Shown one piece after another: positions 19,276-25,491 of a stretch of 31,476 nt of DNA. The stretch is taken from positions 1-31,476 of IMG/VR virus record IMGVR_UViG_3300015372_000010; one strand, written 5' to 3'. The translations under genes and the position numbers were made by a program. Under the pieces are notes generated by a model, which ran no database searches, was not told the DNA's origin, and saw only the letters and a program-made list of their open reading frames with translations. The stretch is from a virus. Position 1 is the stretch's first letter, and every line of letters begins with the position of its first letter.

Positions 19276-20225
19276 TTTTTCGGCTCTCCTACTCTCCTTA
19301 ATTGACCAATCATAATATTCGAGGCCGCCTGAACAGCCTCAGAAGCAGTTCTAACGGCCACTCTAATGCCTGCGGGGCCTTGGACCAAATATCCTCCCTC
19401 AGAACGCTGAACCCATCCTGCATTGTTCGGCAACTTAAACACCTGCCCGACCTGAAGATTAACGACACCAGCTTCTACAATTCGATGTCCGGCAATCATC
19501 TCCGCAGGTGTGAACTTGGAAGAGAATTTTCCAGTTGTCGGGTCACGAAGGTACTTACTAGCGTCAAAAGGGCGGTTAGAACCACTCGCCCCCACCCCTC
19601 GACCCGCTAAAAGGATTTTTCGTTCAATTATCTCAGCAAATTCAAGGTCAGTGAGTTTCCTACCACGAATATCTGTCGCCGCGATCCTGGTTCCTGCTCT
19701 CTTCCGTTCCCAACTAGCAACGGCTGCACAGGCTTGGGCGTTCCCCTTGGCGCAGAGAACTTTGCATCTGTTAACGGCGGCTGCGATAGCGTGAGAGATA
19801 GACAAACCAGAGTCATAGTGGATATGCTTAGCGATACGCTCTATGTAATTTGGGAGTCCACCTGCCTTTTCAACCCAATTCGCTTTTGGGCTGCGATCAA
19901 GCCCCGGGTGAATCCGAGATGAGTGGTCATGCTTGCGACGAGCCAATAGAATAACTGTAGCTGGTCGCGGAGTGGAGGTCGTGGTGACCTTTTTCTTTTT
20001 GGATCCTCTCCAGGAGTCTGGAATGAGATCCATTCTACCGAGCGCCTTTGCTCGTCGTATACAGAGAGCCCTAGCAGCCGCCGGATTCTTACCGTTCCCA
20101 GCAAGTTTAATAGCCTTCCTCAGATGCGCAACGTCAGGGATAGGGAAAGAGCCATCCTTAAGGGCATGACCTTTCTTAGCTAACCTTCGTCGCCCAGCGG
20201 CGCGTTCAACTTCGGGAGTCTTCAT
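19272..20225 (-). CDS. Head morphogenesis-region protein, DUF6582-like N-terminus
   Basis: 317 residues, overlapping the peroxidase stop by 4 bases (ATGA) and the protease start by 4. The N-terminal 75 residues (AKKGHALKDGSFPIPDVAHLRKAIKLAG...AKALGRMDLIPDSW) match a basic helical domain (DUF6582 type) common in phage capsid-region proteins. A second actinophage motif follows at about 108-178 (DRSPKANWVEKAGGLPNYIERIAKHIH ... ACAAVASWERKRA). The C-terminal third (KYLRDPTTGKFSSKFTP, then VNLQVGQVFKLPNNAGWVQR) is of unknown role. The protein is very basic. It is probably a virion or assembly protein. Confidence 0.72.
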   Translation of the reverse strand: MKTPEVERAAGRRRLAKKGHALKDGSFPIPDVAHLRKAIKLAGNGKNPAAARALCIRRAKALGRMDLIPDSWRGSKKKKVTTTSTPRPATVILLARRKHDHSSRIHPGLDRSPKANWVEKAGGLPNYIERIAKHIHYDSGLSISHAIAAAVNRCKVLCAKGNAQACAAVASWERKRAGTRIAATDIRGRKLTDLEFAEIIERKILLAGRGVGASGSNRPFDASKYLRDPTTGKFSSKFTPAEMIAGHRIVEAGVVNLQVGQVFKLPNNAGWVQRSEGGYLVQGPAGIRVAVRTASEAVQAASNIMIGQLRRVGEPKK

Positions 20226-21577
20226 GGAAGCTTTGCCAATCCTGCATCGACAAAGAGATTCGCCAGCTTAAACTTCACCAGACTGGAGTTGTTAAGAATG
20301 GAGTTCTTATCCTCTTGGAGCGTGCGAATAAATACATCGGCGACAATCCTACCGCCCACTGGACCAAGGGTAACGCCATTAGCTTTCTTTGACGCCTCAT
20401 AGAGGATATAGAACCACAACGGAGTACCCGATTGGAACGCAGGAAGCTTTGTAATCTCTGATGGAGGGATTACAGACTCTCCCATGGCGCGGGCGACATC
20501 CTGTCCCGAGGCCATTCCATAGGCATCCGCTCGCACCAGGTTGCGGAAGGCCAACACATTACTTCCCGAAGCCTCAGCTCCTGGAATGGGCAATACGAAC
20601 AGAGAAGAACTGATAAGGGGGTCGATCTTGCGGGAGATGTTCTGCCCGTCGGTGTCGTTGGGATCGGCAAGTTCCGCGACAAAATTCCCCCAAGCAATCT
20701 GACGACCGGCCGGAAGCTGTCGCCCACCTCGAAGATCAGGCTGAGTAGCAGAGAAAACCTGAATCTTACCCGTTGTCTCATTCAACTCATAGGCACGGCG
20801 CACCATGGAATGCCCAAAACGATAAGCCGCGACAGAGAATTCCACAGGAGTACGAGGAGCAATGGGATTCGCTGGCTTATAGAAACGAGGCAGGGCACCA
20901 CTACGGGTATCATCGACAATGGGCTGCCCTACGAAGTGAGGCAATACCTCATCGAGAATGATAGATTGATACCGAACGAGAACCGCATGGCGGGCATCCG
21001 CGAAGCTCATTCCCTGATCGATAAACTTGTTGTGGAGTAGCAGGAATGCCACGTGGATCTGGGAAATGATTTCATTCTCATCATTGCGACCCTCGACGAG
21101 AATGGCAGATCCGTCCGCATTACGCGGGAGATCGATTACTCCATTAGGGTTCGGATTCTGGACCTTAAAGTGTTTTCCGTCAGCCTCGTAGAGTTGAGGA
21201 CTACCTTCCGGTCCATCCCCATAGACAGAATCCAAATCGAACGCCAGCGTCCTTACATTCCGCGGAAGCGTCGAAATGTTAACCGGCCGGGTTGGGGAGG
21301 GAGTGTCGTCGAGCGTCAAATCATGATCGAGGAATTGACCAAAGTAAGTAAAGACCGACAGCATGCCAGGATTGTTTTCACTGTCGGCATTGGGGTCCAA
21401 CATAGTTTGCGCGAGATCCGCAAGATCCTGATTCGTTGGCGACGTGAATCCCTTAAGATTGGGAAACATCGTCACGAATTTAGATTGCGGTTCAGCAACC
21501 GCCGCAGAGGGCGCCACCAAAAGAACAGTTAATAGAGCCGCGAATAGAACTGCGATGAGTTTCTTAGTCGCCATCAT
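20222..21577 (-). CDS. Exported animal-type (myeloperoxidase-like) heme peroxidase
   Basis: 451 residues with an N-terminal signal peptide (MMATKKLIAVLFAALLTVLL..., cleavage likely after AVA near residue 28). Residues 80-88, GQFLDHDLTL, hold the distal-site set: Gln81, Asp84, distal His85 and Ca-binding Asp86. The distal Arg/Glu pair is in VEGRNDENEI (Arg164, Glu167), followed by SQIHVAFLLLHNKFID. The proximal heme ligand is His256 in AYRFGHSMVRR, and Asn346 in FRNLVRA fits the residue that bonds to it. The C-terminus (LGPVGGRIVADVFIRTLQED) is typical of bacterial members. The family oxidises substrates or halides with hydrogen peroxide using heme. All key residues are present, so it should be active once exported. 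It overlaps the peptidase by 14 bases and the next head gene by 4. I know of no standard role in phages. Confidence 0.93.
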   Translation of the reverse strand: MMATKKLIAVLFAALLTVLLVAPSAAVAEPQSKFVTMFPNLKGFTSPTNQDLADLAQTMLDPNADSENNPGMLSVFTYFGQFLDHDLTLDDTPSPTRPVNISTLPRNVRTLAFDLDSVYGDGPEGSPQLYEADGKHFKVQNPNPNGVIDLPRNADGSAILVEGRNDENEIISQIHVAFLLLHNKFIDQGMSFADARHAVLVRYQSIILDEVLPHFVGQPIVDDTRSGALPRFYKPANPIAPRTPVEFSVAAYRFGHSMVRRAYELNETTGKIQVFSATQPDLRGGRQLPAGRQIAWGNFVAELADPNDTDGQNISRKIDPLISSSLFVLPIPGAEASGSNVLAFRNLVRADAYGMASGQDVARAMGESVIPPSEITKLPAFQSGTPLWFYILYEASKKANGVTLGPVGGRIVADVFIRTLQEDKNSILNNSSLVKFKLANLFVDAGLAKLP

Positions 21578-25200: not shown

Positions 25201-25491
25201 TCCTGTAGCTCGTTTCCACCACACTTCACCTGTTTGGTTAGTCGAAGTACCCTGTTTATCACTAGCGAGCTTTGCCCAACCGGTCGATGTTGTCGATGTA
25301 ACCGTGGTGGCGGTGTCAATTGAGAAAGCAACGTAAATAACGTCGCCAACTTGAGCCTCGGGTAGATTGATAACGTGCGTAGTGGAGTCTGTTTGCTGTG
25401 CACCCTGATTTCGAGAACGAACACTGACGAATTTCGGAATGGAGCGACCAAATCTAACCTTATTAGAGAAGGTTCGCCCCATTATTGCCAT
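22261..25491 (-). CDS. PL7 alginate lyase-type domain in a large repeat-containing virion-type protein
   Basis: 1076 residues, AAGGA before ATG 25491. Order of parts: a phage-type beta-sandwich N-terminal domain (about 30-228); one 20-residue repeat (about 231-252, SGSVSLTATPTLTVSG); a polysaccharide lyase family 7 domain (about 257-495); about 26 tandem 20-residue repeats (498-1012); and a 64-residue C-terminal tail. The PL7 motifs are all visible: RTELRE (Arg324, Glu326, Arg328), GQIH (Gln372, His374) and YLKTGAYNK (Tyr460, Lys462, Tyr466), the sets that build the active site in alginate/polyuronate lyases. It should cut a uronic-acid polymer by beta-elimination. It has no signal peptide, consistent with a structural protein of the particle. 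It is the first of four consecutively overlapping genes. Confidence 0.88.
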   Translation of the reverse strand: MAIMGRTFSNKVRFGRSIPKFVSVRSRNQGAQQTDSTTHVINLPEAQVGDVIYVAFSIDTATTVTSTTSTGWAKLASDKQGTSTNQTGEVWWKRATGSDAFTITSSTAEQSTHVSLAIANADDPEAVTANGAAAAAAVPPAINASRGTENYLCLVSTHTDSSAGTTQNFGAISGFDVSTTVQASTTTSAATNVQEELFLNSNGSIAPGTVSLSLAEQWVCITTVFGTLGVSAPTVSGSVSLTATPTLTVSGTVYKPPGSFFNLNNWKITVPYDGPDGDVNADEITQPTLNTYVDTQYFYLDASNQMVMDAPVNGDTTSGSTGVRTELREMDGAVESAWDKTTASRQLTVAGYFDPTNITGGSAPKKVMIVGQIHETGGTPGIYLTVDYDAVPSRLRVFKDGPGVGNLVTGFTPTDKLAFRIECTGGNVNIYGVIGNETALPAIPQFTFPASGFVEVTGSYLKTGAYNKTDTATGSTGDSIAKITYLNLNQALPVVWQATLSLTATPTLSINATRITLATVSLTATPTLTVSALLGVSASASLIGTPTLTVNGLRTAVASVSLTATPTLTVTGLRTAVSSVSLTATPTLTLDGIRTTPASITLTATPTISVSAPQLTAAASVSLIGTPTLSVDGVRIAPASISLTILPSLVIPGNLTEIASVSLLVTPTLSLDGIRTTPAAASLTATPTLSVAAQVTTPATVSLTATPTLSVNAVRITPATITLTATPTISVTAYLTLPASISLIVTPTATFLLGGLAGQVSLSATPTLTVNGLRTALPNISLIASPTLTVDATVITPTGANLSLTATPTLTVSALLTALANFGGIATPTLSVDATRITPATIQLTITPTISVTVFRAQTLSVSLIATPTLSATLGAAGASVSLTATPTIFVTPLYIARPTVLLTALPSLTVGAYLRLPATVSLTITPTLTVGFFGQTPASLALIVVPTLAVDATRYVPAALSLTVSAFLTIDGVRVTLPAIDLLITPTITLLSLRTTVSSVYLLITPTLYVKGAIEGAGPGWPIVFRVTSVDDGEEPVSSSQTKSSPSFEIQSVTNESNNVATVSKPYIDFEDVNA
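22456..24000 (-). repeat. Array of about 26 tandem 20-residue (60-base) SLTATPTL repeats
   Basis: Units follow the consensus A-[ST]-[VI]-S-L-T-A-T-P-T-L-[ST]-V-[DNS]-[GA]-x-R-[TI]-[TA]-[PVL]. Length is nearly always 20 residues, with occasional 19, 21 and 22. The units nearest the lyase are the best conserved; the last five drift (LLITPTITLLSLRTTV and similar). The alternation of small and hydrophobic residues suggests stacked beta strands. Codons vary between units, so selection is on the protein. Confidence 0.95.

Follow-up and report, generated by a model that had tools for sequence, protein, structure and literature searches.

The peroxidase-cyclooxygenase superfamily unites the animal haem peroxidases (PF03098) with the bacterial peroxicins, and the word 'virus' does not occur in the accessible text of a review of this superfamily (PMC4420034). 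For viruses, a catalase-peroxidase gene, katG, is tabulated in the accessible part of another paper as an auxiliary metabolic gene for hydrogen peroxide decomposition, not validated (PMC12713726). Here the 31,476-base IMG/VR virus record IMGVR_UViG_3300015372_000010 was analysed over its whole length, referred to below as the window. On its minus strand a repeat protein with an alginate-lyase-type PL7 domain, a papain-like peptidase and an animal-type haem peroxidase are encoded side by side between the portal and capsid genes. In this phage lineage the stretch from the portal to the cement and capsid genes would serve as an accessory slot; it is likely that the three enzymes reside there separately and do not form one machine, a reading that includes export of the peroxidase. 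Each of the three enzyme families is already known; an export-tagged phage peroxidase near structural genes is new. No phage-encoded animal-type peroxidase was found in the literature searched (PMC13390420, PMC4569894 and PMC13365211 included, as far as their text was accessible; subscription papers and preprints excepted), and such enzymes in phages were previously unrecorded in the records and papers covered.

The peroxidase and its relatives in other phages

The three genes and their parts are the following.

20222..21577, minus strand: animal-type haem peroxidase with a Sec-like signal peptide (PF03098, E 1.7e-13)
21494..21577, minus strand: probable peroxidase signal peptide, about the first 28 residues (composition test)
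21564..22268, minus strand: papain-like (C1) cysteine peptidase, 234 amino acids (phrog_16701 'peptidase', E 2.5e-44)
22261..25491, minus strand: repeat fibre protein, 1076 amino acids, a probable virion appendage (variable N-terminal part, PL7 domain, repeats and conserved C-terminus)
24052..24711, minus strand: PL7 alginate-lyase-type domain of the fibre, residues 261-480 (PF08787, E 4.3e-23)
22459..24003, minus strand: repeat stalk of the fibre, units of about 20 amino acids with a consensus like SLTATPTLTV (repeat spacing)

By profile and motifs the peroxidase is of the animal type (peroxidase-cyclooxygenase superfamily), and its activity is predicted. It scores 50.5 bits against PF03098, for which the Pfam cut-off is 25, and four relatives likewise score above the cut-off. 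The GQFLDHD, RNDE and YRFGH motifs align with those of solved peroxidases and agree with the superfamily signatures in the accessible text of PMC4420034 (distal GxQxxDHD, RxxE and the proximal His). Across 10 aligned phage copies GQF-DHD, RNDEN and YRFGH form invariant columns.

Signal peptides were sought by a test based on composition only, which scores a hydrophobic core after a positive start and a twin-arginine pattern; some rows of alignment A6 start upstream of the true start codon. Two of the 37 genes in the window were signal-like, namely the peroxidase and an endolysin-like gene at 2464-3138, in which the signal-like part lies further from the start. Among distinct phage peroxidases 12 of 13 had a signal-like N-terminus, eight of them Sec-like and four twin-arginine-like (Tat). 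The exception, L013, showed no clear signal; its contig has stops within matched genes and may hold errors. As Sec-like and Tat-like signals both occur in one enzyme family, it is suggested that export itself is maintained by selection.

Scans of virus contigs for the peroxidase gave 13 and 24 loci, many on shared contigs. The 13 distinct peroxidases considered here are those of the window, L001, L010, L012, L002, L020, L016, L013, L014, L015, L130, L129 and L017; outside this set stand L018, L019/L142, L136 and L143, which are more distant, and L132 and L133, which were left uncompared. A portal or major-capsid match was present on the contig of each of the 13 (weak in the case of L016), and at least three capsid types were represented, phrog_1650, phrog_10 and Phage_cap_E. 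For ten of the 13 a head, tail or receptor-binding gene is no more than about 4 kb away (the window, L001, L010, L013, L015, L020, L014, L130, L129 and L017). In the remaining three the closest portal or capsid match identified was about 13 kb (L016), 46 kb (L012) and 16 kb (L002) from the peroxidase. The arrangements differ: the L020 peroxidase precedes the portal and protease, those of L013 and L015 follow phrog_10 capsid genes, that of L014 follows the portal and a receptor-binding propeller, and that of L017 precedes the major tail and tape-measure genes. In L130 (7800-12723) the order is head protease, lambda gpD-type decoration protein, peroxidase and gpE-type capsid gene, and a peroxidase identical to this one was seen on L131, L134, L138, L140 and L141. 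Queries with the window, L020 and L130 peroxidases gave no match in 50,697 GenBank phage records.

This closeness to structural genes, once between the decoration and capsid genes, would also be expected of a virion surface protein that decorates the particle and uses its hydrophobic N-terminal stretch for attachment or membrane contact instead of export. Tailed phages, however, assemble in the cytosol, so that export would keep the protein out of the particle, and the Sec-like and Tat-like N-termini of 12 of the 13 copies speak for export; a place on the virion surface is therefore considered unlikely. The export-type signal would equally suit a helper of lysis that is sent to the wall and there oxidises wall polymers, pigments or phenols, easing release. 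Distant relatives of the neighbouring peptidase are indeed found in the lysis cassette of phage ObLaDi and beside the lysin A and membrane-protein genes of phage Mufasa8. In the window, on the other hand, no lysis gene adjoins the peroxidase and the endolysin-like gene lies 17 kb away from it, and a lysis role is thus judged quite unlikely.

The fibre, the peptidase and the accessory slot

The fibre protein agrees with PL7 alginate lyases in both profile and catalytic motifs, its RTELR, QIH and Y-K-G-Y motifs aligning with the solved alginate lyase AlgAT5 (5zqi), the closest solved relative (E 2.8e-17). Fibre lengths across the window and its relatives are 852, 880, 1076 and 1847 amino acids, and the front differs in length and modules. 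The C-terminal 70 amino acids are 61-73% kept in L001, L003 and L004. Because these last residues are conserved while the front varies, the C-terminus is suggested to be a virion anchor, and the fibre itself is a probable virion appendage. The lyase, carried on the variable part, probably cuts an anionic polysaccharide of the host or its biofilm, judging from domain and motifs. A PL7 domain was found in the L001 fibre as well; the L003 fibre had no Pfam match, and neither the L003 nor the L004 fibre had a PL7 match. By the composition test the fibre N-terminus is not signal-like, and a model of the full-length fibre was too poor for use, its mean predicted local distance difference test (pLDDT) score being 41.7. 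At E 0.01 the PL7 domain of the window had no match among the same 50,697 GenBank phage records. A second PL7 location, outside the slot and in a different capsid group, was seen as a distant match (26%) far 3' of the head genes in L030 and L031:18115-18657, L034:15728-16270 and L033:9914-10456.

A predicted model of the peptidase (pLDDT 81) retrieved papain-family structures in Foldseek, of which xylellain (3ois, E 6e-8) was best; the top matches were xylellain, falcipain, cathepsin S and Der p 1 at template modelling (TM) scores of about 0.55-0.63. The active-site Gln, Cys, His and Asn are all present in 18 of 19 aligned peptidases, that of the window included; the odd row, L016, has Ser at the position of the active-site His and is possibly misaligned. 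The gathering score of PF00112 was not reached, the window peptidase giving no match and the L001 copy 13.8 bits against 20.7. The peptidase is thus predicted from its model to fold and work like papain, yet falls outside Pfam's papain model. No signal peptide was detected on it by the composition test. In L008 (MK557849, the mangrove-soil phage GX15bay) a peptidase 39% identical to that of the window lies on the opposite strand to nearby genes annotated as mannanase, endoglucanase and glycosyltransferase.

The distribution of the three genes was followed among 20 virus contigs found by a capsid-alignment scan, which together with the window form 13 groups at 95% capsid identity; gene calls in the compared loci came from a simple script, and at high G+C they are possibly wrong. 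The peptidase was present in 10 of the 13 groups, in each case between the portal and the protease-like gene, the peroxidase in three (the window, L001 and L004) and a PL7-bearing slot fibre in two (the window and L001). The full trio is accordingly confined to 2 of 13 groups, and joint inheritance across relatives was not observed. In L004 the peroxidase (1353-2774) directly follows a small Gp80-type gene and the peptidase (6771-7454) comes about 4 kb further on. L003 retains the fibre C-terminus and gave no PL7, peptidase or peroxidase match. The peroxidase is missing from nine further capsid groups, of which seven have the peptidase. The latter is absent from L003, L021 and L022; the L022 portal is partial, yet the next gene directly follows it, and L033 starts past the slot region and contributes nothing to its group. 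No other resident of the slot is as widespread as the peptidase, which is probably also the oldest.

The order on the minus strand runs from the portal through five small genes, the PL7 repeat protein, the peptidase, the peroxidase, an unnamed gene, a putative protease/scaffold and a cement-like gene to the major capsid gene. The genes around the trio are the following.

27687..29228, minus strand: portal protein (Portal_Mu PF06074, E 2.4e-40)
25501..27680, minus strand: five small genes, likewise part of the accessory slot, with contents that differ among relatives
26545-26937, minus strand: Gp80 fibre-type protein, one of the five small slot genes (PF23140, E 7.5e-13)
19272..20225, minus strand: conserved structural-module gene, which precedes the protease-like gene in most relatives
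18148..19275, minus strand: putative capsid protease/scaffold (from its place between the portal and capsid genes, its look and its conservation in relatives)
17669..18148, minus strand: cement/decoration-like protein, Phage_cement_2 (PF09956, E 1.5e-5; phrog_673, E 6.9e-8)
16698..17663, minus strand: major capsid protein, Phage_capsid_4 (PF25209, E 2.9e-14; phrog_1650 major head protein, E 8.8e-53)

Neither 19272..20225 nor 18148..19275 had a family match in Pfam and phrog searches. Of the three genes that a preliminary description of the locus had called head genes, then, only the cement-like one (17669-18148) is borne out by a family match. A gene of the tail region of the window (7302-7988) is related at 42% to one that lies in L001 within the slot between portal and capsid (L001:2904-3581), which suggests exchange between tail and slot sites.

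The same description had placed the trio here as the start of a run of six overlapping genes, and its enzyme identities and their location were found to be right. All six genes were recovered on the minus strand, and the overlaps along them, 8, 14, 4, 4 and 1 bases, were reproduced when the peptidase was started at ATG 22268; the 14-base overlap becomes 11 if the peroxidase begins at its second ATG, 21574. It had further read the overlaps as a sign of matched production with the head proteins, and the three enzymes as a unit, either borne by the virion or released jointly, whose targets could be polysaccharide, protein and small molecules on the host or biofilm surface. In favour of such a unit, order and overlaps are alike in the window and L001 and all three active sites appear intact. 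However, 18 of 33 same-strand neighbour pairs overlap in the window (in a hand-chosen gene set), and as overlaps are this common in the genome matched production is not implied. Nor do the distributions and positions of the three genes coincide: side by side they were met in one relative only, L001/L005, and in other capsid groups they are separate, the L004 peroxidase standing by itself and L003 having neither peptidase nor peroxidase. On most contigs of unrelated phages with the peroxidase, a phrog_16701 peptidase is missing. The situation that the description itself had named as arguing against a unit, each enzyme on its own at different sites in relatives, was thus largely observed. That the three would act together at one surface is also unlikely, because only the peroxidase bears an export-type signal. 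A functional unit is on these grounds very unlikely, although the block as a whole, as first supposed, has no counterpart among known gene orders in the GenBank phage collection searched.

Bacterial homologues and a proposed course of action

Identity among the phage peroxidases is mostly 50-83%, that of L017 being only 42%, and the closest bacterial copy found reached about 49% at most over most of its length. In the genome collection the best bacterial match was 46% among the best 80 loci; a different count put this kind of gene at 49%. A sample of the actinobacterial phylum (396 genomes) gave 43% at best among full matches, and two class samples (399 and 394 genomes) reached 46-47% at most, some of these matches being short; at the chosen cut-offs 33 of 396, 32 of 399 and 16 of 394 genomes had a homologue. 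Recent capture from a sequenced host was rejected, no bacterial copy exceeding about 49% over most of its length. The best 80 bacterial loci were checked for signals, with 21 possible, 14 without one and 45 lacking the anchor motif. With alignment A1 as the query, the genome collection had yielded no relatives.

Before trees were built, identical phage rows were dropped (L011, L131, L134, L138, L140 and L141). In a tree of 58 rows, which took the best 40 of 79 genome rows and left out four of eight added rows and L018, the 13 phage peroxidases fell on one side of a branch supported at 99/97. In a 39-row tree with more bacteria, 16 of them hand-chosen genome rows, L155 joined the 13 phage genes on a long branch and the 14 were supported at 100/99; a phage-only clade was not rejected by the topology test (approximately unbiased test, p-AU 0.172). 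A clean phage-only clade was dropped as a claim, since L155 groups with the phage copies once more bacteria are added. This one bacterial chromosomal gene means that a purely viral lineage is not proven. The gene (L155:1378-2886) lies in an apparently chromosomal setting, with one neighbour that by eye looks ThiG-like and one that looks ornithine-carbamoyltransferase-like, and is possibly a donor, a recipient or an artefact. That the peroxidase is passing bacterial cargo captured from a host and without phage function is improbable, for although homologues are widespread in bacteria (at least 80 loci, besides the genome counts above) and L155 groups with the phage set, the phage copies are mostly closer to one another than to bacterial copies and keep their active-site motifs and signals.

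The preferred reading, separate residence of the three enzymes, would work as follows. As only the peroxidase among the three has an export-type signal, the products probably go to different places. The fibre, held by its conserved C-terminus, would bring a depolymerase on the particle, and the peptidase would probably act in the cytosol or the virion, during or after assembly. The peroxidase gene would be mobile cargo of which several unrelated phages make use. Made alongside the structural proteins if expressed late, the enzyme would be exported by Sec in the window or by Tat in a sister group and act extracellularly on hydrogen peroxide, halides or phenols being the likely co-substrates. 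The leading candidate benefits are that the producing cell and its burst are shielded from peroxide or that competitors are attacked with oxidants; a further candidate is assistance at the wall.

Several observations weigh against separate residence. The trio is kept in the same order in L001/L005 (IMGVR 3300036826_000031), with a peroxidase 79% identical to that of the window. On the 112-kb contig L016 a distant papain-like peptidase (7169-7900, phrog_16701, E 2.9e-15) lies about 2 kb before the peroxidase (9980-11392), and the large contigs L002 and L012 carry phrog_16701 peptidases at least 15 kb from their peroxidases; some association of peptidase and peroxidase is conceivable. The signal peptides are calls from composition, and the nearness of the peroxidase to structural genes could reflect a virion role. 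A peptidoglycan-binding protein and a beta-helix protein were also observed near the L016 peroxidase.

A broader proposal is offered tentatively. Tailed phages may share a lineage of their own of exported, myeloperoxidase-like haem peroxidases, lodged in structural clusters and traded across capsid types, that turn peroxide into oxidants or remove it outside the cell and so shield the burst or strike competitors. If this is true, the recurrence of an export-tagged copy near head and tail genes in unrelated phages would mean that extracellular peroxide chemistry is worth keeping for a virus, and the peroxidase offers a concrete, testable protein. The locus also illustrates that three genes in a striking block can each have a history of their own and together make up a mosaic.

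Comparison with known systems

The peptidase has papain-like relatives in actinophages, found by tblastn: gp80 of Streptomyces phage Wakanda, gp30 of Gordonia phage ObLaDi (L154) and gp26 of Arthrobacter phage Mufasa8 (L153). Wakanda gp80 is 40% identical to the window peptidase over 88% of its length. It is encoded near a terminase gene, and the ObLaDi and Mufasa8 copies are part of, or adjoin, a group of lysis genes (lysin A, holin and membrane proteins), whereas the copy in the window lies between the portal and capsid genes. Given where these relatives from cultured phages are encoded, head assembly is not an established function of the peptidase.

The fibre has the same domain and the same catalytic motifs as PL7 alginate lyases such as AlgAT5, but in the window the domain is embedded in a long phage repeat protein. 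Viral katG, listed for viruses, is a peroxide-consuming haem enzyme, as the peroxidase is predicted to be; they belong to different superfamilies, and export is undiscussed for katG in the accessible passage of PMC12713726. With the animal haem peroxidases and the bacterial peroxicins of the peroxidase-cyclooxygenase superfamily, the window peroxidase shares the GxQxxDHD-type distal, RxxE and YRFGH proximal motifs, and it differs from them in that its type is encoded by tailed phages, in 13 distinct copies that lie mostly near structural genes.

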